From Burkholderiales bacterium (lineage in GTDB: Bacteria > Pseudomonadota > Gammaproteobacteria > Burkholderiales > SG8-39): a stretch of 64,000 nucleotides of DNA. This document shows positions 22,878 through 41,386 of this stretch, one piece after another. A model generated the notes under the pieces. That model was given only the letters and a program-made list of their open reading frames with translations, did no database searches and was not told where the DNA came from. Position numbers and translations under genes: made by a program. The stretch's first letter is position 1. Every line of letters starts with the position of its first letter. The stretch is taken from NCBI GenBank assembly GCA_020848075.1, contig JADLAV010000031.1, positions 246,831-310,830 of the forward strand. Direction: 5' to 3'.

Positions 22878-25238
22878 GTGACCCAATCTGCAAGGAAGGG
22901 CGTCGGCGCGCGCCTCCGCCGCAAGGAGGACGAGCGCTTCCTTCGCGGCCGCGGCGACTATGTCGGCAACATCCGCATGGTCGGGATGCTGGACGTCGCG
23001 TTTGTGCGCTCGCCGGTCGCGCACGCGCGCATCCGCGCGGTGCGGAAGTCGCCCGGGCTCGAGAGCGTCGTCTTCACCATCGACGATCTCACCGGCGTGA
23101 AGCCGATTGTCGCCAATTCGGCGCTCAAGGGCTTCAAGTCGGCGCCGCAACACGTCCTCGCTCGGGACAAGGTGCGCCAGGTCGGCGAGTTGATCGCGAT
23201 GTGCGTGGCGCCGAGCCGCGCGGAGGCCGAGGATATCGCGACGCAAGTCGAGCTCGACCTCGAGGAGCTGCCCGCGGTCGTCGACATGGTGGCGGCAATC
23301 GAGCCGGGCGGGCCACGCGTGCACGAGGAATGGTCGGACAACGTCGTGCTCGAGACGCTCGTCGACGACGATCTGAGCACCATCCGGGCGAACGCGGCGA
23401 TCAAGGTGCAGCGGAGGATCCGTACCGCGCGGCAGTGCATGTCGCCGATGGAAGGCCGCGGCGTCGTGGCGCACTACGACCGGCGCCTCGATCAGCTCAC
23501 CGTCCACTCCGCGGCGCAGATGCCGCACATCAACCGCGCCGGGCTCTCGGAGTGCCTTGGCATCGACCAGGGCCGCATCCGCGTCGTCGCGCCCGATGTG
23601 GGCGGCGGCTTTGGCTACAAAGGCATCCTTCTCCCCGAGGAGGTCTGCCTCGGCTGGCTCGCGATGATGCTCGGGCGGCCGGTGCGCTGGCTGGAAGACC
23701 GCTTCGAGCAGCTCGCCGCGAACGCCAACTGCCGCGAGCACTATTACGACATTACCGGGTACGCAACTGCCGACGGTCGGCTCCTCGCGATCGACTGCGA
23801 GGCGATCGTCGATTCGGGGGCGTACTCGTCGTACCCGTTCTCGGCGTGCCTCGAGGCAGCGCAGGTCAGCTCGATCCTGCCGGGACCGTACCGCATGGAT
23901 GGATACCGCTGCCGCACCTGGTCGGCGGCAACCAACAAGCCGCCGATCCTCCCGTATCGCGGCGTCGCGCGCACCGGCGTTTGCTTCGCACTCGAGCTCG
24001 TGGTGGACGCGATCGCGCGCGCGGCTGGAAAAGAGCCGTACGAGGTGCGCCTCGCGTGCCTGGTACCGCCCGAGGCGATGCCGTTCGTCAACATAACGAA
24101 GAAGTTCTTCGACAGCGGCGACTATCCTGAGGCGCTCCGACGCGCCGTGAGGGTGCTCGACCTGCCGAAATGGCGCGAACGGCAGAAGCGCGGCGAGCCG
24201 GATGGCCGGCGCGTCGGCGTAGGACTCGCGATCTTCTGCGAGCAGGGTGCACACGGCACCAGCGTCTATCACGGCTGGGGCATCCCGATGGTGCCGGGGC
24301 ACGAGCAGTGCACCGCGCGCCTATCGCCCGACGGCGTGCTGGAGCTGCGCATAGGCGCACACTCGCACGGCCAGGGGCTCGAGACCACCCTCGCGCAGGT
24401 CGCGCACGAGATCCTCGGCGTCGATCCCGACAACGTGCGCCTCATCCACGGCGACACGGCGCTCACACCGTACTCGACCGGCACCTGGGGCTCGCGCTGC
24501 ATGGTGATGTCGGGCGGCGCGGTCGCGACCGCATGTAAGGAGATCGAAAAGCGCGTGCGCGCCATCGCCGGCAAGCTGATGGAGGTGGCAGGCGACGACC
24601 TGGTGCTCGAGGCCGGGCGCGTGCGCGTCGCCGGTACCGACCGGTCGATGTCGCTAGCCGAAGTCGCGCATGTCTGGTACCGCGCACCGCAGCTCCTGCC
24701 CGCCGACGTCGACCCGGCGGGGCTCGAGACCACGGCGGGCTACAAGGCAGTCCGCGACAGCGGGACGTTCAGCTACGCATGCCACGCGTGCGCGGTTGCC
24801 GTAGACACCGAGCTCGGGACGATCGAGATCCTCGACTACGTGGTCGTCGAGGACGGCGGCACGCTCGTGAATCCGATGATCGTCGACGGGCAGGTGTTCG
24901 GCGGCACGGCGCAGGGTATCGGCACCGCACTCTACGAGGAGATGCCCTTCGACGCCCAGGGGCAACCGCTCGCGTCGACGCTCGCGGACTACATGTTGCC
25001 CGGCGCGACCGAGGTGCCGACGATCCGCATCGAGCACATCGAGACCCCGTCGCCGCTCTCCTACTTCGGCCAGAAGGGCATTGGCGAGGGCGGCGCGATT
25101 GCCCCGCCCGCTGCGATCACGAACGCGGTGAACGACGCGCTCGCCGATCTCGGCGTCGAGATGCTCGAGAGCCCGATAACGCCGCGACGGCTGCTCACGG
25201 CACTCGCAGCGGCGCGTGCGAGGCGCGGCGCGGGATGA
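22878..25238 (+). CDS. xanthine dehydrogenase family, molybdopterin-binding subunit
   Basis: A 786-residue large subunit of a CO dehydrogenase/nicotinate-type molybdenum hydroxylase, starting at GTG 22878. R-K-E-D-E-R-F-L-R-G-R-G-D-Y is the typical N-terminus. G-G-G-F-G-Y-K-G near residue 247 and P-Y-R-G-V-A-R-T-G near 361 bind the cofactor; the latter replaces the A-Y-R-C-S-F-R loop of true CO dehydrogenases, so CO oxidation is unlikely. G-I-G-E-G-G carries the catalytic Glu737. These enzymes insert oxygen from water into C-H bonds beside a ring nitrogen or aldehyde carbon. Overlaps the FAD subunit by an ATGA junction. The gene order large-medium-small is as in several N-heterocycle hydroxylases. 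Confidence 0.92.
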   Translation: MTQSARKGVGARLRRKEDERFLRGRGDYVGNIRMVGMLDVAFVRSPVAHARIRAVRKSPGLESVVFTIDDLTGVKPIVANSALKGFKSAPQHVLARDKVRQVGELIAMCVAPSRAEAEDIATQVELDLEELPAVVDMVAAIEPGGPRVHEEWSDNVVLETLVDDDLSTIRANAAIKVQRRIRTARQCMSPMEGRGVVAHYDRRLDQLTVHSAAQMPHINRAGLSECLGIDQGRIRVVAPDVGGGFGYKGILLPEEVCLGWLAMMLGRPVRWLEDRFEQLAANANCREHYYDITGYATADGRLLAIDCEAIVDSGAYSSYPFSACLEAAQVSSILPGPYRMDGYRCRTWSAATNKPPILPYRGVARTGVCFALELVVDAIARAAGKEPYEVRLACLVPPEAMPFVNITKKFFDSGDYPEALRRAVRVLDLPKWRERQKRGEPDGRRVGVGLAIFCEQGAHGTSVYHGWGIPMVPGHEQCTARLSPDGVLELRIGAHSHGQGLETTLAQVAHEILGVDPDNVRLIHGDTALTPYSTGTWGSRCMVMSGGAVATACKEIEKRVRAIAGKLMEVAGDDLVLEAGRVRVAGTDRSMSLAEVAHVWYRAPQLLPADVDPAGLETTAGYKAVRDSGTFSYACHACAVAVDTELGTIEILDYVVVEDGGTLVNPMIVDGQVFGGTAQGIGTALYEEMPFDAQGQPLASTLADYMLPGATEVPTIRIEHIETPSPLSYFGQKGIGEGGAIAPPAAITNAVNDALADLGVEMLESPITPRRLLTALAAARARRGAG

Positions 25239-26038
25239 AAGCGCCGCGGTTCGCGTACGAAAAGCCGCAGTCGCTGGATGCGGCGATCCGGCTCCTCGCC
25301 GACGGCGGAGACGGCGCGAAGCTGATTGCCGGGGGCCAGTCGCTCGGGCCCATCCTCAATTTCCGGCTCGCGCAGCCAGAGCTATTGATCGACATCCGGA
25401 CGTTGCCGGAACTTCGCACCGTCCGCGACGAGGGCGACGCAGTCTTTCTCGGGGCTGGCACGACGCACGCCGCGATCGAGGATGGCCGCGTCTGCGACCC
25501 GACCCGCGGACTTCTGTCCGCGGTGGCGCGCACGATCGCCTACCGGGCGGTGCGCAATCGCGGCACGCTAGGCGGCAGCCTCGCGCACGCCGACCCGGCC
25601 GCCGACTGGGTGAACTTGATGGCGCTGCTCGACGCCGAGATCGTCGCGCGGGGCCCCAGCGGCGAGCGGCGGCTTCACGCCGCGGCGTTTGTGCGCGGCC
25701 CGCTGACCACAGACTTGGCTGCCGACGAGATCATCACCGGCGTTAGCGTCCGAAAGCTGTCGGGCCGGGCCCGCTGGGGCCAGTACAAGTTCAACCGCAA
25801 GCCCGGCGAGTTCGCGGAGGCGATCGGCGGGTTCGTCCATGACCCGGAGCTCGGGATGGCGCGCGCGCTGGTCGGCGCGATCGGCGACGCACCGTACGTC
25901 GTCGCCGACGCCATGCGCCTCGATGAGCCTGCGATGCACGATGCGGTCTCGCGCGCCGGGTTTGCGGATGGGACCTACGAGCATCAGATTCATTTCGCCG
26001 CGCTGAAGCGCGCGACCGCACAGGCGCGTGGCGCGTGA
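25235..26038 (+). CDS. xanthine dehydrogenase family, FAD-binding subunit
   Basis: A 267-residue medium subunit. K-L-I-A-G-G-Q-S-L-G-P-I-L-N-F-R-L-A at about 30-47 and R-N-R-G-T-L-G-G-S-L-A-H-A-D-P near 110 are the two conserved FAD-binding loops of this family. It passes electrons from the 2Fe-2S subunit to the acceptor. ATG 25235 overlaps the preceding stop and its own stop overlaps the next start as GTGA. Its length is slightly below the usual 280-290 residues, but no domain is missing. Confidence 0.92.
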   Translation: MKAPRFAYEKPQSLDAAIRLLADGGDGAKLIAGGQSLGPILNFRLAQPELLIDIRTLPELRTVRDEGDAVFLGAGTTHAAIEDGRVCDPTRGLLSAVARTIAYRAVRNRGTLGGSLAHADPAADWVNLMALLDAEIVARGPSGERRLHAAAFVRGPLTTDLAADEIITGVSVRKLSGRARWGQYKFNRKPGEFAEAIGGFVHDPELGMARALVGAIGDAPYVVADAMRLDEPAMHDAVSRAGFADGTYEHQIHFAALKRATAQARGA

Positions 26039-26511
26039 CGATGACTCTCTCGCTGTCGGTCAACGGCACGCCGGTGGAGGCGCAAGTCGAGCCGCGCACG
26101 AGTCTCGCCGATGCCCTGCGCGAACACCTTATGCTCACCGGTACGAACGTGGGCTGCGAACACGGTGTCTGCGGCGCCTGCACCGTGCTGATCGACGGCG
26201 CGCCAGCGCGTTCCTGCATCACTCTCGCCGTCGCCTGCGACGGCGCCGACGTGCGCACGATCGAGGGCCTCGACGAGGATCCGGTCGCCACCGCCCTGCG
26301 CGAGGCGTTCGCGGCGGAGCACGCGCTCCAGTGCGGCTACTGCACGCCCGGCATGCTCGTGACCGCGCGCGACATCGTCCTGCGGCTCCCCGACGCAGGC
26401 GAGCCGCGCGTGCGCGAAGAACTCGCGGGCAATCTCTGCCGGTGCACGGGCTATGTCGGGATCGTGCGCGCGATCCTGCGCGTGCTCGCGGAGCGGAAGA
26501 CCGCTGGGTGA
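26035..26511 (+). CDS. xanthine dehydrogenase family, 2Fe-2S subunit
   Basis: A 158-residue small subunit with two iron-sulfur centres. The plant-ferredoxin-type cluster uses Cys41, Cys46, Cys49 and Cys61 (G-C-E-H-G-V-C-G-A-C). The second uses Cys100, Cys103, Cys135 and Cys137 (C-G-Y-C and C-R-C). All eight ligands are present. GTG 26035 overlaps the previous stop; an ATG two codons later is also possible. It links the molybdenum site to FAD. The following truncated gene begins with a GTGA overlap, so the operon once continued. Confidence 0.93.
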   Translation: MTMTLSLSVNGTPVEAQVEPRTSLADALREHLMLTGTNVGCEHGVCGACTVLIDGAPARSCITLAVACDGADVRTIEGLDEDPVATALREAFAAEHALQCGYCTPGMLVTARDIVLRLPDAGEPRVREELAGNLCRCTGYVGIVRAILRVLAERKTAG

Positions 26512-26687: not shown

Positions 26688-26731
26688 GTCAAACCGGTCC
26701 CTCATAGAAGGAGGGGTGGCGGGCCTGACAT

Positions 26732-27493
26732 TCAGCGCCGCCGCCCCGCGATCAGCTCGATATCGAGGTGCACCACGTCGCCGCGATACACAATCTCCCC
26801 GACGTAGATCGCGACACCGGCCCGGTCGGTGACGACGCAGTGCGCCTCGACTGTCGGCGCGTTCAGGGCGATTCGCAGGCAGCGCGCCGTTTCGACGTCG
26901 GCGGCGCCCACCGACAGGGTCTGGTGGGCGCGGGCGATCGCCCGGCCATTCAGGCGGGCCAGCACCGCCAGCGCAGGGTGCATCGCGAATTGCTTCGCCG
27001 CCTTGCGATGGAGCGACTGCGCCACATGCACGCTGGCGAGCGCGTAGGGCTCCTTGCCGCGCGTCTGCACCGAGCGCAGATAGACGTATGCGGGCGCCGG
27101 GACGCCGTCCTCGGGGCCGATGCGCGGCGGAGGCGGGCTGGATGCGCGTAGCAGATGCGGCACGTTGTCGCGGATCGGCTCGATCAGGCTCTCCCAGTCG
27201 GTGGCGAGCCGCAGCCAGCGGTCGTTCGCGACCGTCCCGATGACGAACGTCCCCTTGCCCTGGTGCGCGCGCAGCAGACCTTCGCGCGCGAGGAGCTCAA
27301 TCGCCTGCCGCACTGTGACGCGCGCGACCCGGAACTCACGCTGCAGGGCCTGGATCGTCGTGATGCGGCCGCCCACCGGCCAGCGGCCTTCCCGAATGCG
27401 TCGCCGCAGCGTGGAGGCGACCTGGAGGTAGCGCGGCACACGCTGCTCGGCGGAGCGCGCGCTGCCTTTGCTGATGCGCCGTGTCGCGATCAT
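26732..27493 (-). CDS. GntR family regulator, HutC subfamily
   Basis: A 253-residue regulator if started at ATG 27493; an upstream ATG at 27562 would add 23 residues. The N-terminal winged helix is clear: [17 protein letters not shown], then [25 protein letters not shown] and H-Q-G-K-G-T-F-V. The C-terminal half ([10 protein letters not shown], then V-E-A-H-C-V-V-T-D) has the UTRA chorismate-lyase-like ligand fold of HutC relatives. It is divergent from the PLP enzyme, with a 16-bp palindrome between them that is likely its operator. The same palindrome type recurs at 33633. Confidence 0.88.
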
Positions 27494-27577
27494 GACGGGC
27501 GATTCTGCCGCCGACGATGGCGCAGCGCAACCCACGCGGTGGGTGAATTGCCTTTTGAGCATAGTTATGTGAGACTA

Positions 27578-27593
27578 GTCCTAGAAATAGGAC
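27578..27593. promoter_or_regulatory. palindromic operator candidate 1 (GntR site)
   Basis: GTCCTAgaaaTAGGAC is a perfect 6-bp inverted repeat with a 4-base spacer, in the divergent region between the GntR regulator and the PLP enzyme. Its GT...AC ends fit the general GntR-family pattern. A 20-base window around it (27576-27595) matches the site at 33631-33650 at 15 of 20 positions. Position suggests autoregulation and control of the rightward operon. Confidence 0.6.
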
Positions 27594-27634
27594 CATTGGA
27601 CGATAACACTGCACCGAGCCGGCAAGCGCTGGAG

Positions 27635-29128
<1,494 letters not shown>

Positions 29129-29150: not shown

Positions 29151-30122
29151 ATGGGCGGAGGAGCGGACGTCAGGAGCTACCACGAGCTGCGCAAGGCCAC
29201 GGCCGCGCGCGACCGCGGCCTGCGCGAGAAGGTCATGTCCCTCGAGGAGGCTGCCTCTCTCGTCAACGACGGCGACCACGTCGCGATCGGCGGCTGTACC
29301 ATGTCCCGCACGCCATTCGCCATGATCTGGGGGCTGATCCGCGCGCGGCGCCGGAAGCTCAAGGTGTCGCGCTCAATCGTCTCGACCGAGGGCGACCTGC
29401 TGTTCGCCTCCGGCGCCGCCGACCACATCATGACCAGCTGGTTCAGCCAGGGCATCGTGTGGGGCGTCTCGAAGGTGATGCGTCACTACACCGAGAAGAA
29501 GCTCGCGCACTTCGAGGAGTGGAGCCACATGTCGATGGGGCTGCGTTACCGCGCCGGCGCGATGGGGATCCCGTTCATGGCGACGCGCGCCATGGTCGGC
29601 TCGGACGTCGGCCGCGAGGTAGCCGACAAGGTGAAGCCAATGACCTGCCCCTTCACCGGCGAACCGTTGCTGCTGCTGCCCGCACTCAATCCGGATGTGG
29701 CGCTGATCCATGTACAACGCGCCGACCGCTACGGCAACGCGCAGATGGACGGGCTGCAGTTCATGGACATCGACATCGCGATGGCGGCAAACCGGGTGAT
29801 CCTCACCACCGAGCGCCTGATCTCGAACGACCAAATCCGCCGCACGCCCGACCAAACGCGGATCCCGTTCTTCACCGTGGACGCGGTGGTCGAGGTGCCC
29901 TACGGAGCCGCGCCGCACGAATGCTACGGCCTGTACGAGCCGTTCTTCGATCACCTGGACTACTACGCCGGCCTGGTCGCCAAGGATGCGGCGGAGTCCG
30001 CGCGGAACTACCTCGACGAGTACTACCACGAGCCGGCGACCTGGGCCGACTACCTCGTCAAGATCGGCATGCATTCGGTTCTCGACGCGAGCCGGCGCGG
30101 CAGGAGCATCTTCAATGACTGA
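29151..30122 (+). CDS. CoA-transferase subunit A (glutaconate CoA-transferase type)
   Basis: A 323-residue alpha subunit of a family I CoA-transferase. M-S-L-E-E-A-A-S-L-V-N-D-G-D-H-V-A-I-G-G at about 28-47 is the typical opening strand-helix. A-L-N-P-D-V-A-L-I-H-V-Q-R-A-D-R-Y-G-N-A-Q near 180-200 and I-L-T-T-E-R-L-I near 220 are family signatures. ATG 29151 has GGAGGAGA upstream. Overlaps subunit B by 8 bp. Together they would move CoA between acyl-CoA and a free (di)carboxylate. Relatives include IpdA of steroid ring degradation, so a hydrolase-type activity is a possible alternative. Confidence 0.88.
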   Translation: MGGGADVRSYHELRKATAARDRGLREKVMSLEEAASLVNDGDHVAIGGCTMSRTPFAMIWGLIRARRRKLKVSRSIVSTEGDLLFASGAADHIMTSWFSQGIVWGVSKVMRHYTEKKLAHFEEWSHMSMGLRYRAGAMGIPFMATRAMVGSDVGREVADKVKPMTCPFTGEPLLLLPALNPDVALIHVQRADRYGNAQMDGLQFMDIDIAMAANRVILTTERLISNDQIRRTPDQTRIPFFTVDAVVEVPYGAAPHECYGLYEPFFDHLDYYAGLVAKDAAESARNYLDEYYHEPATWADYLVKIGMHSVLDASRRGRSIFND

Positions 30123-30885
30123 GCACGCGAGCTACACTGCCTCAGAGTTGCTCGCGGTCATGGCCGCGCGGCTCCTTAAGGACGGCCAGACGGTGTTCGC
30201 CGGCGTGGGTGTCCCACTGCTCGCGGCCACCCTCGCACAGCGGTTGCACGCCCCGACGCTGACGATCCTTTTCGAAGGGGGCGTGATCGGGCCGTTCATC
30301 GTACCCGGCGAGCTGCCGCCGTCGACCAACGAGCAGCGTTGCACGCGCCGCGCCAACATGGTCCTGCCGATTACCGACGTGCTCCTCCTGCTCCAGCGCG
30401 GCTACGTCGACGTCGGCTTCATGGGCGGGGCGCAGATCGACCGTTTCGGCAACCTGAACAGCTCGTTCATCGGCGATCCGCGGTCGCCGACGATCCGCCT
30501 GCCGGGGACCGGCGGGGGCAACGACATCGCCTCGCTCGCGCAGATGATCGTGGCGATGAAGCACGAGAAGCGCCGCTTCGTCCCGAAAGTGGACTTCATC
30601 ACCAGCCCGGGCTTCATCGAGGGACACAAGACGCGTGCCGAGCGGGGTCTCATCTCCGGCGGCATGTGGCGCGTAGTCACTGACCTCGCACTGATGGGCT
30701 TCGACCAGACCACGCGCGAGATGACCGTGCTCGCACTGCATCCTGGCGTGAGCGCGGAGCAGGTGCAAGATGCGACCGGCTTCGATCTGCACATCGACCA
30801 GCGCGTCGAGCGGACTGCTCCGCCGCACGAGGACGAGCTCGCAGCGCTGCGCAAGCTCGATCCCGAGCGGGTTTACACGGCCTGA
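30115..30885 (+). CDS. CoA-transferase subunit B (glutaconate CoA-transferase type)
   Basis: A 256-residue beta subunit. I-L-F-E-G-G-V-I-G at 51-59 places Glu54 at the position of the catalytic glutamate of Acidaminococcus GctB, which forms the CoA thioester. That favours a true transferase. D-V-G-F-M-G-G-A-Q-I-D-R-F-G-N-L-N near residue 102 and G-T-G-G-G-N-D-I are also family landmarks. The start at 30115 lies inside the end of subunit A. A weak terminator-like hairpin follows at 30907, before the next gene. Confidence 0.88.
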   Translation: MTEHASYTASELLAVMAARLLKDGQTVFAGVGVPLLAATLAQRLHAPTLTILFEGGVIGPFIVPGELPPSTNEQRCTRRANMVLPITDVLLLLQRGYVDVGFMGGAQIDRFGNLNSSFIGDPRSPTIRLPGTGGGNDIASLAQMIVAMKHEKRRFVPKVDFITSPGFIEGHKTRAERGLISGGMWRVVTDLALMGFDQTTREMTVLALHPGVSAEQVQDATGFDLHIDQRVERTAPPHEDELAALRKLDPERVYTA

Positions 30886-30986: not shown

Positions 30987-31934
30987 ATGGCAAAGACCGT
31001 GTACGGTGTCGCGATGCGAAACTTCACGCGCTACCCGGAGATGCCGAGTGCGCAGGCCCTGATGGACTACGGCGTGCGCGCGGAGCGCCTCGGGTACGAG
31101 TCGCTGTGGGCCTGGGACCACATCCTGCTCGGCATCGAGCCGAGCTTTCCGATCATGGAGTCGCTCTCGATCCTGACCGCGGCGGCAGCGCGCACGACTA
31201 AGATCCGACTCGGCACCGGCATCCTCGTCCTGCCGATGCGCAACCCGGTGATCCTCGCGAAAGAGCTGGCGACCATCGATCACATCTCGAACGGGCGCCT
31301 GGTCGTCGGTGCCGCCGTCGGCTGGTACAAGCGCGAGTTCATGGCGATGGGCGTCGATTTTCATCAGCGCGGCAAGATCATGGAGCAGTCGCTGGAGATC
31401 CTGACGCAGCTATGGACCGAGGACCGCCTTACGGTCGACTTCCCGCCGTATCTGATCAAGGACGCGGTCATGTTCCCGAAGCCCCTGCAGAAGCCGCGTC
31501 CGCCACTCCTCATCGGCGGCTACGTGGAGGCGGTGCTGCGCCGGGCGGCGACGAAGGGCGACGGCTGGCTCACTTACTACTACACGGCGGACAGCTTCGC
31601 GTCGAACTGGGCGAAGATCCGCGGCTTCGCCGAGGAAGCGGGGCGCAACCCTGACGAGCTGCAATCGACTAACCAGTTGCCGATCGTCGTCGGTCCGCGC
31701 GCGAAGGTGGAGGGTCCGATGCGCGAATGGCTGCAGACTGAGTGGGATTACGCGGCGTGGTCCGAGTCCACCGCCGAGAGCGCGATCATGGGTACGGCGG
31801 ACGAGTGCGTGGAGCAGCTTCTCAAACACGTGAAGACCGGGGTCGACCGGCTCATCTTCGTGCCGTACCGCTATCAGAACGAGCAGCTCGAGATCATCGC
31901 GAAGGAGATCATCCCGAAGTTGCAGCAGGCCTAG
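30987..31934 (+). CDS. LLM class flavin/F420-dependent oxidoreductase
   Basis: A 315-residue luciferase-like monooxygenase family protein. A-E-R-L-G-Y-E-S-L-W-A-W-D-H at 31-44, then R-I/L-G-T-G-I-L-V-L-P-M-R-N-P near 75 and L-V-V-G-A-A-V-G-W-Y-K-R-E-F near 105 match the TIM-barrel cofactor-binding strands. G-N-P-D-E-L-style text late in the protein also fits. Family members use FMN or coenzyme F420. F420 is the likelier here because its biosynthesis genes and an F420:NADP reductase lie within 8 kb on the same strand. ATG 30987 follows GAGAGGT. Convergent with pxpC, overlapping by 4 bp. The substrate is unknown. Confidence 0.87.
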   Translation: MAKTVYGVAMRNFTRYPEMPSAQALMDYGVRAERLGYESLWAWDHILLGIEPSFPIMESLSILTAAAARTTKIRLGTGILVLPMRNPVILAKELATIDHISNGRLVVGAAVGWYKREFMAMGVDFHQRGKIMEQSLEILTQLWTEDRLTVDFPPYLIKDAVMFPKPLQKPRPPLLIGGYVEAVLRRAATKGDGWLTYYYTADSFASNWAKIRGFAEEAGRNPDELQSTNQLPIVVGPRAKVEGPMREWLQTEWDYAAWSESTAESAIMGTADECVEQLLKHVKTGVDRLIFVPYRYQNEQLEIIAKEIIPKLQQA

Positions 31935-32890
31935 CGCGATCGGCTGGCCAGCTTCTTCCGCAGTGCTGCAAGGCGCGCTTCGAGCTCGCGCCGCGCGGCC
32001 TCCGCTTCCTCCACGCCGACCGCATCGAACGCGATAGTCGTCCCGGGGCGTAACCGCCCGAGCGCAGGCACATCGGCGGAGGCGACGGTGGCGATCTTCG
32101 GGTAGCCGCCGGTCGTGGGGCGGTCGGCGAGCAGCACGATCGGCAGTCCGTTCCCCGGCACCTGGATCGAGCCGGGCGCCGTGCCGTCGGAGACGATGTT
32201 GAATCCCTTCGAGTGCTCCAGCGCCGGACCCTCCAGGCGCATCCCCATTCGATCCGACTGGCGCGACACGGTGTAAGTCGATTCGAGGAACGTCTGCAGC
32301 CCGCGCTCGGTGAAGTGATCGGCCTGCGGCCCGAGGATGACGCGCACGCGCGTCGGCGGCGCAAGGTCCCATGTCGGGGCGCTGCGCTCCGCGCGCACGG
32401 GCGCGGTGGGAAGCGCGAGCGGCAGTGCATCGCCCTTCCTGAGCGGCCGGCCCTCGAGCCCGCCGAGCCCGGCGCGCGGGAAAGTCGCGAGGCTGCCGAG
32501 ATCGCCCGGCAGTGCGAAACCGCCTTCGACCGCGAGATACGCGACGAGCGACGTCTCGCATGGACCGATCGTCACCCGATCCCCGCGTGCAAGGCGCACG
32601 CTGCGGCCGGCAGCTACCACATGCTTGTTGCCGCCTGTGGCGATCTCGAGGGAGGCGCCGATCGCCGCGACCCGCACGCTCTCGGCCGCGACCTCGAGCG
32701 TCGGCCCGCGGTAGAACGTCTCCAGCGCGGCGGTGCCGTCTGCGTTGCCGACCAGCGCATTGGCGATGCGGAGGCTCACCCAGTCGAGCGCGCCGGACAC
32801 CGGGACGCCGTAGCGCTGCTGCCCCGTCCGACCGAGGTCCTGGAGCATCGCGATGGCGGCCAGGGCGACCACGTGAAGCGTGTCGGTCAC
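31931..32890 (-). CDS. pxpC: 5-oxoprolinase subunit C (biotin-dependent carboxyltransferase family)
   Basis: A 319-residue protein of the KipA/PxpC family. I-A-M-L-Q-D-L-G-R-T-G-Q-Q-R-Y-G-V-P-V-S-G-A-L-D (14-37) is its strongest signature, and S-D-R-M-G-M-R-L-E-G-P-A-L near 215 and A-D-R-P-T-T-G-G-Y-P-K-I-A near 255 are also typical. With PxpA and PxpB it forms an ATP-dependent enzyme opening 5-oxoproline (pyroglutamate) to glutamate. GTG 32890 overlaps the pxpB stop as GTGA. Placed in a catabolic cluster, the complex may act on a related lactam instead. Confidence 0.88.
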   Translation of the reverse strand: MTDTLHVVALAAIAMLQDLGRTGQQRYGVPVSGALDWVSLRIANALVGNADGTAALETFYRGPTLEVAAESVRVAAIGASLEIATGGNKHVVAAGRSVRLARGDRVTIGPCETSLVAYLAVEGGFALPGDLGSLATFPRAGLGGLEGRPLRKGDALPLALPTAPVRAERSAPTWDLAPPTRVRVILGPQADHFTERGLQTFLESTYTVSRQSDRMGMRLEGPALEHSKGFNIVSDGTAPGSIQVPGNGLPIVLLADRPTTGGYPKIATVASADVPALGRLRPGTTIAFDAVGVEEAEAARRELEARLAALRKKLASRSR

Positions 32891-33651
32891 GCGCCCTCGG
32901 ATTCGAGCTCGAGCCTGCCGGTTGCGGCCTGTGCGGCGAGGCGATCGAACTCTGCCATGCCGATGGGCGCGAAGCGCACCTTGTCGCCGGGCGCGAGCAC
33001 AGCCGGCGGCCGACTCGTGCGGTTCCATAACGCTGCCGGCGTACGGCCGAGGATGTGCCAGCCGCCCGGACTCGCGAGCGTGTAGACTGCGGTCATCGCG
33101 GTCGCGATCGCCACCGACCCGGCCGGCACCTGCGTACGCGGGCTCTCGCGCCGCGGCAGCGCGAGCCGTGCGGGCAAGTCGCCCATGTAAGGGTAACCGG
33201 GCAGGAACCCGATCATGTAGACATGGTAGGTCGTGGCACTGTGATGTTCGATCACCTCTGCCGGCGCGAGACCGGTGCGGGTCGCCACCTCCTCCAAGTC
33301 GAGGGCGAACCGCGGGTCGTAGCAGACGGGGATGGTCCAGCGCCGTGCCACGGGCTTCACGCCTTCCAGCCCGGCGGCGAGCGGGACAATCGCGTCCGCG
33401 AGTGCCGCATGCGTGGTCCGCACCGGATCGTAGTGCACCATCAGCGAGCGGAAGGTGGGAAGCAGCTCGACGACGCCGGGAAGGCGCTCGCGCGCGACGC
33501 GATCATGGAGTGCGAGCACCCGCTCGCTGGTTGCGCGGTCGATGCGCTCGCCGAATTCCACTGCAAGCGCGGTGTCGCCGTTCGGTAGCAATCTCACCTG
33601 GGGACCGGACACTCGCTGCACTGGTGTGAATGGTTCTAAATATAGTACCAT
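32887..33651 (-). CDS. pxpB: 5-oxoprolinase subunit B (KipI family)
   Basis: A 254-residue protein if started at ATG 33651. V-R-L-L-P-N-G-D-T-A-L-A-V-E-F-G is the usual KipI/PxpB beginning; here it starts only at residue 19, so a GTG at 33597 (or 33612) may be the true start. F-L-P-G-Y-P-Y-M-G-D-L-P near 150 and S-V-A-I-A-T-A-M-T-A-V-Y-T-L-A-S-P-G-G-W-H are family motifs. The first codons of the longer form coincide with the operator palindrome at 33633, which also argues for the shorter protein. Divergent from pxpA. Confidence 0.87.
   Translation of the reverse strand: MVLYLEPFTPVQRVSGPQVRLLPNGDTALAVEFGERIDRATSERVLALHDRVARERLPGVVELLPTFRSLMVHYDPVRTTHAALADAIVPLAAGLEGVKPVARRWTIPVCYDPRFALDLEEVATRTGLAPAEVIEHHSATTYHVYMIGFLPGYPYMGDLPARLALPRRESPRTQVPAGSVAIATAMTAVYTLASPGGWHILGRTPAALWNRTSRPPAVLAPGDKVRFAPIGMAEFDRLAAQAATGRLELESEGA
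33633..33648. promoter_or_regulatory. palindromic operator candidate 2 (GntR site)
   Basis: GTTCTAaataTAGTAC has 6-bp arms with one mismatch and a 4-base spacer. It lies between the divergent pxpB and pxpA genes. It matches the palindrome at 27578-27593 in layout and in most bases. This suggests the same GntR protein controls the oxoprolinase and F420 genes. Confidence 0.55.
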
Positions 33652-33708: not shown

Positions 33709-34488
33709 ATGGCCCTGCAGATCAACCTCAATGCCGATATTGCAGAGAGCTGGGGCGCCTACTCGATGGGCAACGACGCCGCGCTGGTGAAGATCGTCCG
33801 CTCGGCGAACGTCGCGTGCGGCTTCCACGCCGGCGACCCGACCGTGATGCACCGCTTTGTCACCGCCGCCAAGGAAGCGGGCTGCAGCGTCGGCGCCCAT
33901 CCCGCGTTCAACGATTTGTGGGGGTTCGGCAGGCGCCGGATCACGATGCGCCCCTCCGACCTCGAGTACATGATGGCCTACCAGATCGGCGCCCTGCAGG
34001 CGATGTGCGCCTACGCCGGTTTGAAAGTGACGCACCTCAAGCCGCACGGTGCGCTCAACAACATGGCGGCCGAGGACGCGGACTACGCGCTCGCGATCGG
34101 TCGCGCGATCAAGACAGTCGACAGGAACATCATCTACGTCGCGCTGCCCGGGACCGAGATGGAGACCGCGGCGCGCAAGCTCGAGCTTCCGCTGGCGCGC
34201 GAGGGCTTCGCCGACCGCCAGTACGACGACAACGGCAACCTCGCCTCGCGCTCCATCCCCGGCACCGTCCTGAAGGACGCAGCGAAGGCGGCGGAGCAGG
34301 TGCTGCGCATGGTGCGCGGGGGCGAGATCGTCGCGCGCAGCGGGAAAGTGCTCAAGGTTCAGGTCGAGACGATCTGCGTGCACGGCGACGAGCCAACCGC
34401 GGTCGAGGTGGCAACGGCGGTACGCAAGGGCCTCGAGGGCGCGGGCATCCAGGTCGTATCGCTCGATCAGATGAAGCTGCCGGGCTGA
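33709..34488 (+). CDS. pxpA: 5-oxoprolinase subunit A (LamB/YcsF family)
   Basis: A 259-residue protein. The N-terminus I-N-L-N-A-D-I-A-E-S-W-G, then N-V-A-C-G-F-H-A-G-D-P-T-V-M at about 37-50 and G-A-H-P-A-F-N-D-L-W-G-F-G-R-R are nearly diagnostic for YcsF/PxpA. H-L-K-P-H-G-A-L-N-N near 109 is the later conserved segment. It is usually the catalytic amidase half of 5-oxoprolinase. The S-V/I-Y pattern of typical members (A-D-L-N-E-S-F-G) appears here as N-A-D-I-A-E-S-W-G. It starts the rightward operon that runs into the F420 genes, 8 bp before the next start. Confidence 0.9.
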   Translation: MALQINLNADIAESWGAYSMGNDAALVKIVRSANVACGFHAGDPTVMHRFVTAAKEAGCSVGAHPAFNDLWGFGRRRITMRPSDLEYMMAYQIGALQAMCAYAGLKVTHLKPHGALNNMAAEDADYALAIGRAIKTVDRNIIYVALPGTEMETAARKLELPLAREGFADRQYDDNGNLASRSIPGTVLKDAAKAAEQVLRMVRGGEIVARSGKVLKVQVETICVHGDEPTAVEVATAVRKGLEGAGIQVVSLDQMKLPG

Positions 34489-34496: not shown

Positions 34497-35165
34497 ATGG
34501 ATGCGGTCAAGCCGAAGATCGCACTGATCGGCGGCACCGGTGATCTCGGCACCGGGCTCGCGATGCGCTGGGTCGCCGCCGGGTATCCGGTGATCGTAGG
34601 CTCGCGCGACGCGAGGCGGGCCGAGCAGGCGGCTGCCCGGCTCGACCCGTCCGTCGGCGCGCCGGCGCCGCGCGGGCTTGACAACGCCGCTGCTGCCGCC
34701 GCCGCCGAAATCGTCGTGCTTACCGTGCCGTTCGCCTCGCACGAAGCAGTCCTTGCTGAGATTCGCGACGCGGTGGCCGGCAAGATCGTGATCGACGCGA
34801 CCGTTCCGCTCGTTCCGCCCAAGGTCGCGCGCGTGCAGCTGCCGCCGGACGATTCGGCGGCCGTCGCCGCGCAGAAGATACTCGGCCCGGGCGCGCGCGT
34901 CGTATCGGCGTTCCACAACGTCGGCGCGCTCAAGCTGCAGAAGGACGGGCCGATCGACTGCGACGTGCTCGTCTTCGGCGACAAGCCCGAGGACCGGGAG
35001 GTGGCGATCCGGCTCGCTGAGGCGGCCGGTCTGCGCGCGCTGCACGCTGGACCGCTCGCAAACTCCACCGCCGCCGAAGCGCTCACCTCGGTGCTGATCG
35101 GCATCAACAGCCGCTACAAGGTGGACGGCGCGGGTATCCGCATCAGCGGAATCCCGGTGACCTGA
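34497..35165 (+). CDS. npdG: F420H2:NADP+ oxidoreductase (NADPH-dependent F420 reductase)
   Basis: A 222-residue Rossmann protein. I-A-L-I-G-G-T-G-D-L-G-T-G-L-A at 8-22 is the NADP motif, with S-R-D closing the fold near residue 40 (G-S-R-D-A-R-R-A). I-V-V-L-T-V-P-F near 73, V-V-S-A-F-H-N-V-G near 138 and D-V-L-V-F-G-D follow, as in Fno/NpdG proteins. It moves hydride between NADPH and coenzyme F420, supplying F420H2 for F420-dependent enzymes. It sits between pxpA and FO synthase, 12 bp before the latter, so its cofactor is made by the genes next to it. Confidence 0.87.
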   Translation: MDAVKPKIALIGGTGDLGTGLAMRWVAAGYPVIVGSRDARRAEQAAARLDPSVGAPAPRGLDNAAAAAAAEIVVLTVPFASHEAVLAEIRDAVAGKIVIDATVPLVPPKVARVQLPPDDSAAVAAQKILGPGARVVSAFHNVGALKLQKDGPIDCDVLVFGDKPEDREVAIRLAEAAGLRALHAGPLANSTAAEALTSVLIGINSRYKVDGAGIRISGIPVT

Positions 35166-35177
35166 CACGCCTTCCGC

Positions 35178-37589
35178 ATGCTGCGCGAGCTCACCTCGGC
35201 GCTCAATCCCGATCTCGCGGCGCGCGCGGGTGACGTGCTCGCCACGCTCGACCACTCTACCCTGCCTGAACTCTGTGTTCGAGCGCGGGCGCTGCGCGAG
35301 GCAGGCCACGGCGTGCGTGTGAGCTACTCGCGTAAGGTCTTCATCCCGCTAACGCGTCTTTGCCGGAACACCTGCGGCTACTGCACGTTCGTCCGCGGCC
35401 CGAAGGCGGTCGCGTACCCGTACCTGCGGCCGCACGAGGTACTGGAGATCGCGCGGCTCGGCGCTGCGGCCGGCTGCAAGGAGGCGCTCTTCGCGCTCGG
35501 CGACCGGCCGGAGGCCGTGCATGCCGCTGCGCGCGGCGCGCTCGAGGAGCTCGGCTACGCCTCGACCGTCGAGTACCTCGCCGCGGCGTGTGCGCTCGTG
35601 CTCGCCGAGACGGGCCTGCTTCCGCACGTCAACGCCGGTGTGCTGTCCGAGGACGAGACTCGCCGGCTGCGGGAGGTAAGCGTCTCGCAGGGACTGATGC
35701 TCGAATCGGTGGCCGACCGGCTGTGCGACCCTGGCGGCCCGCATCACGGGTGCCCGGACAAGCGGCCCGCGGTGCGGCTCGAGGCGATCGAGGCGGCGGG
35801 GCGCGCCGGCGTACCGTTCACCTCCGGGATCCTGATCGGTATCGGCGAGACGCGCCTCGAGCGCGTCGCTGCGCTGCTCGCGTTGAAGGCAGCACACGCC
35901 CGTCACGGTCACCTACAGGAAGTGATCGTGCAGAGCTTCCGCGCCAAGCCAGGCACGCGCATGCGCGAGCGCGACGATGCGGCGTTCGACGATCTCGTCT
36001 GGACCGCCGCGGCGGCGCGGCTGATCCTCGGCGCGGAGGCGAACATCCAAGTGCCGCCGAACCTGAGCGACGCGCGTTTTCCCGAGCTGCTCGACGCCGG
36101 CATCAACGATTGGGGTGGCATCTCGCCCGTCACCGACGATTACGTCAACCCCGAGCACGCGTGGCCTTCGATCGAGACGCTCGGGGTGGCCACGCGCCGG
36201 GCAGGGCTCGTGCCGATTGAACGGCTCGCGATCTATCCCGCTTACGCGCGCGAGGGCACCAGCTGGCTCGGCGCGGCACTCGTGCCGCGCGTGCTCGCGG
36301 CGAGCGACGGTGAAGGCTACGCGCGGACGGAGGTGTGGAGCCCGGGCGTGGCTGGCACGGCGCTCCCGGCGCCCGTGTCGGGCGGCGCGGGCCGGTATCG
36401 CGCGTTCGATTCGGCGCTCGCGCGCGCGCTGCGCGGCGGGCGACCGGACGAGGGCGACATCGTCGAGATCTTCGGGGCGCGCGAGGGCGCGCTCGAAGCG
36501 CTCGCCGCGGCGGCGGACGACCTGAGAGCGGCGAGGGTTGGCGAGACCGTACGCTACGTCGTCAACCGCAATATCAACTACACCAACGTCTGCGCCTTCC
36601 ACTGCCGCTTCTGCGCGTACTCGAAGGGCAAGACGGCAGTGAGGCTGCGCGGCCAGCCCTACGACCTCGCGCTCGAGGAGGTCGCCCGCCGCGTGCGAGA
36701 GGCGTGGGCGCGAGGCGCGACCGAGGTGTGCATGCAGGGCGGCATCCATCCCGCCTACACAGGCGACACCTATCTCGCGCTGCTTCGCGCAGTGAAGGAC
36801 GCGGAGCCACGGATGCACGTGCACGCGTTCTCGCCCCTCGAAGTGACGCACGGCGCGCGCACGCTCGGCGTGAGCGTTCCGGCATTTCTCGCGCGCTTGC
36901 GCGACACTGGGCTCGGCTCGCTCCCCGGTACCGCCGCCGAGATCCTCGACGACGCCGTGCGTGCGCGTATCTGCCCCGACAAGCTATCCGCAAGACAATG
37001 GCTCGATGTCGTGGAGGCCGCGCACCGCACGGGCCTGCGCACGACCGCGACGATCCTGTTCGGCCACGTCGAGGCGCCGCGGGCCTGGGCGCGCCACCTG
37101 CTCGCGATCCGCGATCTGCAGGCGCGGACCGGCGGATTCACCGAGTTCGTGCCGCTGCCGTTCGTGCACATGGAAGCGCCGATGTACCTGAAGGAGGGTG
37201 CGCGGCGCGGGCCGACGTGGCGTGAGACGCTCGCCATGCACGCGGTGGCGCGGCTCGTTCTGCATTCGCTCGTCCCCAACATCCAGGTCTCGTGGGTGAA
37301 ACTTGGCCTCGAGGGCGCCGCGGCGTGCCTCACCGCCGGCGCGAACGATCTCGGCGGCACGCTGATGAACGAGAGCATCTCGCGCGCGGCCGGGAACGAG
37401 CACGGCGAGGAGCTGCCTCCGGCAGCGATGGAAGCGCTCATCCGCGGAGCGGGCCGCCGGCCAGAGCAGCGCACGACGCTCTACCAGCGGGTCGACGCGG
37501 CGCGGCACCAGGCGAGCTTCGACGCGCCGCCGCTCGTACCCATCGTGCTCACGCCGGTGCCGCGGCGCGCGGACCCGGCCACGGCATGA
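35178..37589 (+). CDS. fbiC: FO synthase, fused CofG-CofH (FbiC)
   Basis: An 803-residue protein with two radical SAM domains. The first has Cys62, Cys66 and Cys69 in L-C-R-N-T-C-G-Y-C (CofG half). The second has Cys472, Cys476 and Cys479 in V-C-A-F-H-C-R-F-C-A-Y-S-K-G (CofH half). Both clusters are complete. Together the halves join tyrosine and the flavin precursor 5-amino-6-ribitylaminouracil to give FO, the deazaflavin of F420. The fusion is the arrangement known from actinobacteria; archaea keep two genes. Late signatures P-L-P-F-V-H-M-E-A-P and W-V-K-L-G belong to CofH. Followed by cofE after 9 bp. Confidence 0.94.
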   Translation: MLRELTSALNPDLAARAGDVLATLDHSTLPELCVRARALREAGHGVRVSYSRKVFIPLTRLCRNTCGYCTFVRGPKAVAYPYLRPHEVLEIARLGAAAGCKEALFALGDRPEAVHAAARGALEELGYASTVEYLAAACALVLAETGLLPHVNAGVLSEDETRRLREVSVSQGLMLESVADRLCDPGGPHHGCPDKRPAVRLEAIEAAGRAGVPFTSGILIGIGETRLERVAALLALKAAHARHGHLQEVIVQSFRAKPGTRMRERDDAAFDDLVWTAAAARLILGAEANIQVPPNLSDARFPELLDAGINDWGGISPVTDDYVNPEHAWPSIETLGVATRRAGLVPIERLAIYPAYAREGTSWLGAALVPRVLAASDGEGYARTEVWSPGVAGTALPAPVSGGAGRYRAFDSALARALRGGRPDEGDIVEIFGAREGALEALAAAADDLRAARVGETVRYVVNRNINYTNVCAFHCRFCAYSKGKTAVRLRGQPYDLALEEVARRVREAWARGATEVCMQGGIHPAYTGDTYLALLRAVKDAEPRMHVHAFSPLEVTHGARTLGVSVPAFLARLRDTGLGSLPGTAAEILDDAVRARICPDKLSARQWLDVVEAAHRTGLRTTATILFGHVEAPRAWARHLLAIRDLQARTGGFTEFVPLPFVHMEAPMYLKEGARRGPTWRETLAMHAVARLVLHSLVPNIQVSWVKLGLEGAAACLTAGANDLGGTLMNESISRAAGNEHGEELPPAAMEALIRGAGRRPEQRTTLYQRVDAARHQASFDAPPLVPIVLTPVPRRADPATA

Positions 37590-37598
37590 ACGGCCCGG

Positions 37599-38375
37599 AT
37601 GCCTGGTGCCGCAAGCCTCACGCTCATCGCCCTGGAGGGCATCGGCCCGGTCGCGCCGGGTGATGATCTCGCCGCCCGTATCCTCGTCGCTGCCGAAGGT
37701 GCCGGGCTGGCGCTCGCCGACGGTGACGTCCTGGCGGTCACGCAGAAGATCGTCTCGAAGAGCGAGAACCGCTACGCGGTGCTCGACGAGGTCATGCCCT
37801 CGCCGCGCGCGCTCGAGCTGGCGCGCACCTGCCGCCAGGATGCACGCGTCGTCGAGCTGGTGCTCGCCGAGTCGCGCACGGTGCTCCGCGCGGTCCCCGA
37901 AGTGCTCGTCGTCGAGGACCGGCGGGGACTGGTGCTCGCCAACGCCGGAGTCGACCGCTCCAACGTCGAACCCGATGCGCGCGGACGCGAGCGCGCGCTC
38001 CTGCTGCCGCTCGACCCCGACGCGAGTGCTGCGCGCCTACGCGCACGCATCTTCGAGCTCTCCGGAGCCGACGTCGGCGTGCTGATAAACGACAGCATCG
38101 GTCGCGCTTGGCGGCTGGGGACGATCGGCACGGCGATCGGCGTGAGCGGCCTGCCGGGCCTGCTCGACCTGCGCGGTGCGCCGGACCTGCACGGGCGAGC
38201 GCTGCAGACCACCGAGGTCGGCCTTGCCGACGAGCTCGCGGCCGCGGCGTCTGCAGTCATGGGGCAGGCGGGCGAAGGCCGGCCGGTCGTGCTCATCCGC
38301 GGTGCGCGGCTTCCGCGGCGCGACGGCAGCGCGCGCGAGCTGCAGCGGTCGCGTGAGCGGGACCTCTTCCGGTGA
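37599..38375 (+). CDS. cofE: coenzyme F420-0:L-glutamate ligase CofE
   Basis: A 258-residue protein of the CofE fold. G-I-G-P-V-A-P-G-D-D-L at about 14-24, D-V-L-A-V-T-Q-K-I-V-S-K-S-E near 43-56, and V-L-I-N-D-S-I-G-R-A-W-R-L-G-T-I-G near 160 are family landmarks. It adds glutamates to F420-0 to make the poly-glutamate tail. Mycobacterial FbiB has an extra C-terminal nitroreductase-like domain of about 200 residues that reduces dehydro-F420-0; it is absent here. ATG 37599, 9 bp after fbiC. The end overlaps cofD. Confidence 0.92.
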   Translation: MPGAASLTLIALEGIGPVAPGDDLAARILVAAEGAGLALADGDVLAVTQKIVSKSENRYAVLDEVMPSPRALELARTCRQDARVVELVLAESRTVLRAVPEVLVVEDRRGLVLANAGVDRSNVEPDARGRERALLLPLDPDASAARLRARIFELSGADVGVLINDSIGRAWRLGTIGTAIGVSGLPGLLDLRGAPDLHGRALQTTEVGLADELAAAASAVMGQAGEGRPVVLIRGARLPRRDGSARELQRSRERDLFR

Positions 38376-39292
38376 TCGTCGCGCTCGCCGGCGGCGTGGG
38401 CGGCGCGAAGCTCGCGGCCGGGCTAGCGCGCGTGCTGCCGCCCGAGGACCTCGTGATCGCGGTCAATACCGGCGACGACTTCGAGCATCTCGGGCTCCAC
38501 GTTGCGCCCGACCTCGATACCGTGATGTACACCCTCGCCGGGATCGCAAACACGGAGACCGGCTGGGGGCGGGCAAACGAGACCTGGTCGTTCATGGAGG
38601 CGCTCGAGGAGTTCGGCGGGCCGACGTGGTTCCGGCTCGGCGACCGCGATCTGGCGACCAACGTCGAGCGGACCCGGCGGCTGCGCGCGGGCGACACCCT
38701 GTCCGACGTCACGCGCGACCTCTGCGCACGACTCCGCGTGCGTCACGCGGTGGTGCCGATGTCGGACGATCCGGTGCGCACAGTGGTGCACTCGGATCAC
38801 GGCGCGATAGAGTTTCAGCACTACTTCGTGCGCGACCGCTGTGTGCCGCGCGTGCAGCGGCTCGAGTATCGCGGCGCCGAATCGGCGCGGCCGAGCCCGG
38901 CGTTACGCGCGGCGCTCGATCGTTGCAGCGGGGTGGTGTTCTGCCCGTCGAATCCGTACCTCAGCATCGCGCCGATCCTGGCCGTGCCGGGCGTTCGCGA
39001 TGCGATCGACGCGCGCGCGCTCGCGGTCTCGCCGATCATCGCCGGGCGTGCGGTGAAGGGGCCGGCCGCGAAGATTATGCGTGAGCTCGGAGTCGAACCC
39101 TCGGCGCTCGCGGTGGCGCGGCACTACCGCGGCGTCGTCCGCGCACTGGTGATCGACCGGGCCGACGCGACGCTCGCACCTGCGATCGAGGCGTTCGGGA
39201 TACGCGCGGTAGTGGAGGACACACTGATGACCGACGACGCGGCGCGCGAGCGGCTCGCGCGCGCATGTGTGGCTACGCTCGAGCGGACGTGA
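38372..39292 (+). CDS. cofD: 2-phospho-L-lactate transferase family protein CofD / FbiA
   Basis: A 306-residue transferase starting at GTG 38372, which overlaps the cofE stop. V-A-L-A-G-G-V-G-G-A-K-L-A-A-G-L-A at 3-19 is the substrate-binding loop, N-T-G-D-D-F-E-H-L-G-L near 33-43 and P-D-L-D-T-V-M-Y-T-L-A-G follow, and C-P-S-N-P-Y-L-S-I near 190 with S-P-I-I-A-G-R-A-V-K-G-P-A near 222. It transfers a phosphorylated three-carbon acid from its GDP-activated form to FO. All expected motifs are intact. Confidence 0.93.
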   Translation: MIVALAGGVGGAKLAAGLARVLPPEDLVIAVNTGDDFEHLGLHVAPDLDTVMYTLAGIANTETGWGRANETWSFMEALEEFGGPTWFRLGDRDLATNVERTRRLRAGDTLSDVTRDLCARLRVRHAVVPMSDDPVRTVVHSDHGAIEFQHYFVRDRCVPRVQRLEYRGAESARPSPALRAALDRCSGVVFCPSNPYLSIAPILAVPGVRDAIDARALAVSPIIAGRAVKGPAAKIMRELGVEPSALAVARHYRGVVRALVIDRADATLAPAIEAFGIRAVVEDTLMTDDAARERLARACVATLERT

Positions 39293-39888
39293 GCGAGGGC
39301 GTGTTCGCGCTCGTGCCAGTGAAGGACCCGGCGCTCGGTAAGTCGCGGCTCGCCGCGGTGCTCGGCGCGGAGGCACGCATCGAACTCAACCTGCAGCTCG
39401 CACGACAGACGTTCGACCATTGCGCGACAGCGTTCGGTCGCGAGCGGACGGTCGTCGTCACTGCGAGCGCGTCGGTTGCGGCGGAGGCGAGGGCGCGCGG
39501 AATCGCCGTGATTGGCGAGCCCGCGCCCGGCGACCTTAACGCAGCACTCGCTCTCGCCGCGCGGCGCGCGATCGATCGGGGTGCGCAGGCACTGCTCGTC
39601 GTTCCTGTGGATCTCGTGCTGCTGACCGCGGAGGCTCTGCGCGCCGCTGCGAGCGCCCTCGAGACGCCAGGTTGCGTACTGGTGCCCGACCGGCAATACG
39701 CCGGCACCAACCTGCTCGGGCTGCGACCGGCCCGCACCGATCTCTTTCGCTTCGGGGAGCGGAGTCTCGAAGCGCACCGCAAGGCCGCAGCGGAGGCCGG
39801 GCTCGCAGTGCACGTACATGCCGAGCCGACCCTTGCACTCGACCTGGATACTGCGGAGGATTACCGCGCTTGGGGATCCAATCACTGA
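39289..39888 (+). CDS. cofC: guanylyltransferase CofC / FbiD
   Basis: A 199-residue nucleotidyltransferase, GTG start overlapping the cofD stop. A-L-V-P-V-K-D-P-A-L-G-K-S-R-L-A (6-21) is the nucleotide-binding loop of the CofC family. V-V-P-V-D-L-V-L-L near 105, then D-R-Q-Y-A-G-T-N-L-L-G-L-R-P near 138 and L-D-L-D-T-A-E-D near 190 follow. It activates 2-phospholactate, phosphoenolpyruvate or 3-phosphoglycerate with GTP; which one cannot be told from the sequence. Last gene of the rightward operon. Confidence 0.9.
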   Translation: MSEGVFALVPVKDPALGKSRLAAVLGAEARIELNLQLARQTFDHCATAFGRERTVVVTASASVAAEARARGIAVIGEPAPGDLNAALALAARRAIDRGAQALLVVPVDLVLLTAEALRAAASALETPGCVLVPDRQYAGTNLLGLRPARTDLFRFGERSLEAHRKAAAEAGLAVHVHAEPTLALDLDTAEDYRAWGSNH

Positions 39889-41382: not shown

Positions 41383-41386
41383 CGCC

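Follow-up and report, generated by a model that had tools for sequence, protein, structure and literature searches.

A conserved gene island that joins coenzyme F420 biosynthesis to a probable reductive pathway for nitrogen heterocycles

We analysed a 64,000-nucleotide stretch of a Burkholderiales bacterium (GTDB SG8-39; contig JADLAV010000031.1, positions 246,831 to 310,830), here called the window, which holds at 22.2-39.9 kb an island of catabolic genes and genes for coenzyme F420. The preliminary description of this DNA had placed a molybdenum hydroxylase (Mo-hydroxylase), an LLM oxidoreductase with its F420 reductase, 5-oxoprolinase subunits (PxpABC), a pyridoxal phosphate (PLP) enzyme and a CoA-transferase around one GntR regulator, and family scans found all of them. 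On the plus strand, a MarR-type regulator (22228..22845; Pfam MarR) adjoins the genes for the large (MoL, 22878..25238; Pfam), FAD (25235..26038; FAD_binding_5) and [2Fe-2S] (26035..26511; Fer2 and Fer2_2) subunits of the Mo-hydroxylase; among solved structures, the best match of the large subunit is quinoline 2-oxidoreductase (500 bits). The minus-strand GntR/UTRA regulator (26732..27562; alternative start at ATG 27493 possible), assigned by Pfam and reaching no NCBIfam equivalog cut-off, is divergent from the plus-strand gene for a 497-residue PLP fold-type-II enzyme (27635..29128; Pfam PALP; OASS/CBS fold; relatives at 70-86%). Further along the plus strand lie CoA-transferase subunits A (glutaconate CoA-transferase-like; 29151..30122) and B (30115..30885), both with the CoA_trans domain and with 1poi_A and 1poi_B, respectively, as best PDB matches, and a 315-residue F420-class oxidoreductase with the LLM superfamily fold (30987..31934).

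The Pxp genes are split between the strands, pxpC (31931..32890; CT_A_B; over the TIGR00724 cut-off) and pxpB (32887..33651; CT_C_D; over the TIGR00370 cut-off) being on the minus strand and pxpA (LamB/YcsF by Pfam, 33709..34488; over the NF003814 cut-off) on the plus strand. The start of pxpB is provisional, 33651 being the furthest-upstream ATG near the domain. After pxpA comes npdG, encoding NADPH-dependent F420 reductase (34497..35165, plus strand; TIGR01915, 197.2 versus a cut-off of 149.8 bits), followed directly at 35178-39888 by a complete F420 biosynthesis set, also on the plus strand and each member over its NCBIfam cut-off: fbiC (cofGH, 35178..37589; NF006687, 1075 versus 1018 bits; the sole copy in the genome), cofE (37599..38375; TIGR01916), cofD (38372..39292; TIGR01819) and cofC (39265..39888; TIGR03552). 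Of these F420 genes, the preliminary description had named the reductase alone. Gene spacing is tight, with gaps of 22 bp (PLP gene-coaA), 8 bp (pxpA-npdG), 12 bp (npdG-fbiC) and 9 bp (fbiC-cofE), a longer one of 101 bp (coaB-llm), and overlaps at coaA/coaB, cofE/cofD and cofD/cofC. This spacing suggests two operons, PLP-coaA-coaB-llm and pxpA-npdG-fbiC-cofE-cofD-cofC.

We scanned one genome per species for the LLM subfamily, obtained 86 confirmed matches and kept the best 80 loci, 48 with full and 32 with short flanks; gene content was determined by tblastn, and open reading frames (ORFs) were grouped by in-house clustering, with Pfam names for the clustered families. The loci come from Hyphomicrobiales, Rhodospirillales, other Alphaproteobacteria and Burkholderiales, as well as from Nitrospinota, Tectomicrobia, Rokubacteriota, Binatia and two actinobacterial metagenome-assembled genomes (MAGs). 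The CoA-transferase pair lies no more than 4 kb from the LLM gene in 76 of the 80 loci. PALP has some match in 66 (at least 55% identity in 40), the Mo large subunit in 39, FbiC in 33, and PxpA and GntR in 31 each; PxpA and FbiC occur together in 26, and all five F420 genes in 16. For PxpA, a rough estimate at one copy per 5 Mb genome gives about 0.3 expected loci. Although gene order varies from group to group, the set itself is kept together: the island is real and conserved, and the neighbourhood on which the preliminary description had built its pathway recurs in other genomes. In Xanthobacteraceae 501b, cofE, cofD and cofC form a separate gene group about 20 kb from the island LLM gene, next to another LLM gene (25%) and an ORF judged by eye to be RidA-like.

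The LLM protein of the window (AlphaFold model pLDDT 80.6) scored over the curated TIGR03619 cut-off (206.7 versus 166.9 bits). One full-length FbiC is present in the host genome (4.1 Mb, 95% complete), whose complete F420 gene set lies in the window; of its two LLM genes, the other falls below that cut-off. Among 39 searched genomes holding an LLM locus, drawn from a manual choice of 40 of the 80 loci that spanned the groups, CofD exceeded its cut-off in 37; in random samples of the window's class and the class of Rhodoplanes, it did so in 14/369 and 58/385 genomes, respectively. In the opposite direction, the LLM subfamily was found in 7 of 72 CofD-positive genomes (two of the seven, the window's genome and the Rhodoplanes centre, had been chosen beforehand) versus none of 80 CofD-negative ones. 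The subfamily goes with F420, yet accounts for a small part of proteobacterial F420, not all of which is explained by the island.

Pairwise comparison of intergenic stretches detected a palindrome, GGTNCTA-N4-TAGNACC, at both divergent promoters of the window, which an inverted-repeat search at minimum length 7 had missed. One predicted operator, upstream of the PLP gene (27577..27594), has one mismatch to GGTNCTANNNNTAGNACC; the other, between pxpB and pxpA (33632..33649), matches it perfectly and would overlap the first pxpB codons if ATG 33651 is the start. A third site in the window, at 63489, has two mismatches. Among 30 simulated windows none contained a site with 0 or 1 mismatch, and those with two mismatches numbered 0.73. 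Genome-wide, the perfect site is unique and that at 27577 is one of four with a single mismatch. The 80 loci contain 60 matches (up to two mismatches), of which 49, spread over 37 loci, lie upstream of pathway genes at a distance of no more than 300 bp (PALP 28, PxpA 11, MoL 7, PxpB 2, NpdG 1). In the control, 178 permuted half-sites gave a mean of 2.1 and a maximum of 12 upstream matches, and spacers other than 4 gave 0-1, apart from spacer 7. The palindrome also precedes the CoA-transferase genes in Sinorhizobium meliloti, and npdG and the CoA-transferase genes in S. fredii. Given its presence at both divergent promoters and upstream of pathway genes in 37/80 loci, the pathway genes are likely to be co-regulated, and the co-expression on which the earlier proposal depended is likewise likely. 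From the position of its gene, we infer that the GntR protein binds the palindrome.

The label 5-oxoprolinase, given to the three Pxp subunits in the preliminary description, held at the family level and not at the level of equivalog scores for PxpA and PxpC. PxpA passed two subfamily cut-offs and failed three equivalog cut-offs; PxpC, over its domain model, failed the equivalog NF045499 (221.2 versus 500). PxpABC may thus carry the name of a family and act on a compound other than 5-oxoproline. Three hydrolases were mutually exclusive among the 80 loci, of which 31 carry PxpA, 19 an M20 deacylase and 8 a DUF6282 protein, with zero overlap; none of the three was seen in 22 loci, many of them with short flanks. 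The DUF6282 protein is accompanied by an arylmalonate-decarboxylase-like neighbour, and in six loci (L020-L025) the M20 gene lies between npdG and gntR. Since the three exclude one another, they would seem to serve one shared step, the opening of the same amide, lactam or cyclic ureide. We rejected glutathione or 5-oxoproline salvage, because PxpABC is swapped for M20 or DUF6282 proteins while the rest is unchanged. A role for PxpABC-type enzymes on substrates other than 5-oxoproline is a possible link, and it would be new.

The PLP enzyme (AlphaFold model pLDDT 78.9) is a single-copy protein (E <= 1e-30) in 27 of 44 genomes; others hold a type that is 30% identical. A cysteine synthase was rejected for this gene, whose fold is OASS/CBS-like, as the best CysK/CysM score was 64.5 versus 350.95. 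In Rhodoplanes serenus, the single PALP copy lies 40 kb from the LLM locus, near a uraD/hiuH fusion and an SsnA-like gene, in a cluster that also holds a selenium-dependent xanthine dehydrogenase (889 versus 830 bits), a YgeY-like M20 gene and, at the edge of the stretch, an incomplete YgfK gene (a YgfK-like ORF was identified only in locus L112). The SsnA-like gene adjoins PALP in all four Rhodoplanes genomes. Conversely, the S. meliloti island described below carries diaminopropionate ammonia-lyase (YgeX family) in the place of PALP. Because PALP occupies the YgeX slot in Rhodoplanes and a YgeX-family gene occupies the PALP slot in S. meliloti, the PLP enzyme appears, from two separate contexts, to substitute for 2,3-diaminopropionate ammonia-lyase. 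In the Burkholderiales MAG SJ92, PALP, CoaA and CoaB lie away from the LLM locus (L004); the ORFs after them resemble an L-serine dehydratase (by eye) and a UbiD-family decarboxylase, the latter scoring over the TIGR00148 cut-off.

A compact version of the island is on plasmid pSymA of S. meliloti R28, where one strand carries dihydroorotase, Liv permeases and ATPases, npdG, cofE (unannotated), cofD, cofC and fbiC, then CoA-transferase A/B, LLM (55%), the M20 deacylase, NAD(P) transhydrogenase and the three Mo-hydroxylase subunits, followed by a substrate-binding protein, diaminopropionate ammonia-lyase in two open pieces, and gntR. The two lyase pieces (38677-39870 of that locus, L098) are unannotated and reflect either a broken gene or a record error. 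A 9.8-kb part of the R28 island recurs in plasmid records of 10 S. meliloti (98.8-100%), GR4 included, and of two S. fredii (88.6%). The available text of a k-mer association study reports nodule-occupancy k-mers in a 26-kb pSymA region present, among the study strains, only in GR4, KH35c and KH46; it lists GctA, GctB, FbiA, PntB and diaminopropionate ammonia-lyase among the functions there, giving them singly and proposing, in that text, no joint pathway (PMC8407117). Like the window, this region has fbi genes, LivF, GctA, GctB, LLM, a Mo subunit and GntR; unlike the window, it has M20 and diaminopropionate ammonia-lyase in place of PxpABC and PALP, with dihydroorotase and transhydrogenase added. 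The S. meliloti version lies in a region linked to nodule competitiveness by this association in three strains, which does not make it a cause. PMC8407117 was the only paper on this gene set found in a literature search whose coverage left out subscription papers and preprints.

Subunit B of the CoA-transferase has a conserved Glu that aligns with a Glu of 1poi_B, which we take to be the catalytic residue of glutaconate CoA-transferase, and that is shared by all 86 sequences in the alignment, which include redundant ones. A non-transferase activity like that of IpdAB or AibAB was rejected, as this Glu is retained. With the 3-oxoacid transferase models TIGR02429 and TIGR02428 the pair scored below cut-off. 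For the Mo-hydroxylase, aerobic CO dehydrogenase was rejected (CoxL models, 545.6 versus 950 and 479.3 versus 991). The Mo-hydroxylase is a module of its own, since relatives sit in clusters lacking LLM; these carry MarR, amidohydrolases, DUF1116 or HpxZ genes, and relatives of the MarR protein (46-52%) adjoin the Mo-hydroxylase in four LLM-free plasmid clusters.

We consider F420H2-dependent reduction of a nitrogen heterocycle by this conserved, palindrome-marked island to be the best explanation of these results and hold it with moderate confidence; the island probably represents a form of reductive N-heterocycle catabolism that depends on F420 and has yet to be described. In the proposed sequence, the Mo-hydroxylase would act first on the heterocycle, the predicted F420H2-dependent LLM enzyme would then reduce the ring, PxpABC would catalyse a hydrolysis, and the predicted PLP lyase and the CoA-transferase would carry out the last steps. 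NpdG would recharge F420 from NADPH, the products of fbiC-cofE-cofD-cofC would make F420, and GntR would control both operons, that of the PLP, CoA-transferase and LLM genes and that of the pxp and F420 genes, via the shared palindrome. The logic would resemble that by which anaerobes degrade uric acid reductively, using a Mo enzyme, a ring reductase, amide hydrolases, an M20 protein and diaminopropionate ammonia-lyase, except that F420H2 and the LLM enzyme would replace YgfK or UacX. A diaminopropionate-type PLP lyase would favour a two-nitrogen ring (imidazole-, pyrimidine- or purine-type), the carbon spine of which would leave as a 2,3-diaminopropionate-like amino acid, and we judge this likelier than a pyridine or pyrrole route. 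The interpretation in the preliminary description is thus partly supported: a nitrogen heterocycle or lactam agrees with the quinoline 2-oxidoreductase match and the three exclusive hydrolases, and a simple pyridine or lactam is less favoured by such a lyase.

Several observations weigh against F420H2-dependent ring reduction by the island. The reactions, their order and the substrate are proposed from sequence, and the CoA-transferase step is unexplained; this Gct-type enzyme is the closest partner of LLM and does not figure in the uric acid pathway. No F420 gene lies in the stretch covered in 47 of the 80 loci (21 of the 48 with full flanks), two genomes (G014 and G038) lack CofD despite an LLM locus, and structure comparison (Foldseek) ranks F420 and flavin LLM enzymes intermixed. 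The Mo-hydroxylase is found at 55% identity or more in just 26 loci, has relatives at 64-70% in other plasmid clusters without LLM, and is preceded in the window by no site with 0-2 mismatches. Spacer 7 also yielded 15 upstream palindrome matches, and the site counts are not independent, many loci being close kin (about 15 Ancylobacter). SsnA was over its cut-off in none of 44 genomes (best 233 versus 455.5 bits, in the four Rhodoplanes), so the published yanthine route does not fit these genomes.

Under a rival reading, the island would degrade a pyridine or pyrrole carboxylate in the manner of Azorhizobium nicotinate catabolism, with F420H2 in place of 6-hydroxynicotinate reductase; the steps would be hydroxylation, reduction to a tetrahydro-oxo lactam, ring opening and transfer of CoA to glutarate or another such dicarboxylate. 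We regard it as unlikely, although its step order fits, the Mo subunit is nearest quinoline 2-oxidoreductase, and the closest relative of the CoA-transferase, glutaconate CoA-transferase, belongs to a class that acts on C5 dicarboxylates. Azorhizobium shares with the island hydroxylation followed by ring reduction and hydrolytic opening, and its reduction to 1,4,5,6-tetrahydro-6-oxonicotinate is reported in the available text of PMC3511419; according to the same text, the reductase of the known cluster is a homologue of the Eubacterium barkeri enzyme, in contrast to the LLM protein of the island. Moreover, nicotinate breakdown would not be expected to involve a diaminopropionate-type lyase, and the dihydroorotase of the S. 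meliloti island points to cyclic ureides.

A complete variant of reductive uric acid breakdown, with the LLM protein as an F420-dependent yanthine reductase, we consider improbable. The known pathway (XdhD-YgfK/UacX-SsnA-HyuA-YgeW/UacY-YgeY-YgeX) ends with a diaminopropionate step, as far as the available texts go (PMC12507026, PMC12990295). Likenesses are a Mo hydroxylase-family enzyme, a ring reductase, amide hydrolases (M20 in some loci) and a slot for a PLP fold-II lyase, and a Mo enzyme and such a lyase do lie in one cluster. The PLP gene of Rhodoplanes stands in a cluster of this kind, and the available part of PMC12507026 proposes a Chloroflexota F420-type luciferase-family gene beside SsnA as yanthine reductase, so that a role of F420 in purine reduction has been suggested before. 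Unlike that pathway, the island has an F420-class LLM protein instead of YgfK/UacX, PxpABC, a CoA-transferase that would be without a role, and its own F420 biosynthesis; SsnA falls below cut-off as given above, and by eye, with no dedicated search made, YgfK, HyuA and YgeW were not seen in eight loci.

A reading in which LLM acts as a flavin-dependent monooxygenase, the F420 genes serving other enzymes, is similarly doubtful. LLM folds are not separated by cofactor, and JGI annotation names relatives alkanesulfonate monooxygenase; against this stand the TIGR03619 score, the CofD frequency, the F420 genes beside LLM in 33/80 loci and a host genome with two LLM genes alone. That a housekeeping F420 operon came by chance to lie near unrelated catabolic genes, as the absence of part of the set from some loci might suggest, is very hard to credit, given that co-location is conserved although the orders are rearranged, that the palindrome is shared and that S. 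meliloti has a compact plasmid island.

Reductive catabolism dependent on F420H2 has a counterpart in picrate reduction by the npd genes of Rhodococcus and Nocardioides, in which hydride is likewise transferred to an aromatic ring and NpdG recharges F420; the island differs in substrate class and in having a Mo-hydroxylase, PxpABC, a CoA-transferase and a PLP lyase. Why Proteobacteria synthesise F420 is called unanswered in the available text of a 2021 review (PMC8498797). In the window, whose genome has just two LLM genes, F420 synthesis is tied physically and, because of the shared palindrome, probably also by regulation to one catabolic pathway. More tentatively, the island might be a portable, self-sufficient F420 pathway of aerobes that dearomatises a diaza heterocycle, brings its own F420 synthesis, recharging and regulation, yields a diaminopropionate-like amino acid, and would explain both F420 in some Proteobacteria and a rhizosphere edge on pSymA; we see this wider picture as possible and short of probable.

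Two transporters downstream of the island, identified by Pfam on the minus strand, may belong to it. A DctM-DctQ-DctP TRAP transporter (40069..42994) is possibly associated: a DctM relative (74%) adjoins PALP in one other locus (L037), and on a Bosea plasmid TRAP and thiamine pyrophosphate (TPP) enzyme genes stand beside PALP. A branched-chain-type (Liv) ABC transporter (44364..49119), possibly the uptake system, comprises five proteins with relatives in 31-45 of the 80 loci. Adjoining the TRAP genes on the plus strand (43089-44338), two overlapping ORFs with the N and C domains of a TPP enzyme resemble sulfopyruvate or phosphonopyruvate decarboxylase subunits and score below those cut-offs. 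Next to the Liv transporter, the minus strand (49186-51311) encodes a small 2Fe-2S protein and a flavoprotein that resembles fumarate reductase. Beyond them, adjacent M24 and M20 peptidase-family genes (51353-53706, minus strand) are laid out like the ectoine-degradation genes DoeA-DoeB, with scores below those cut-offs, and a DUF1989/urea amidolyase-associated protein (53810-54550, plus strand) has relatives near the LLM locus in 5 of the 80 loci. At the other end of the window, the minus strand encodes a 667-residue protein with a caspase-like Peptidase_C14 domain (8202-10205).

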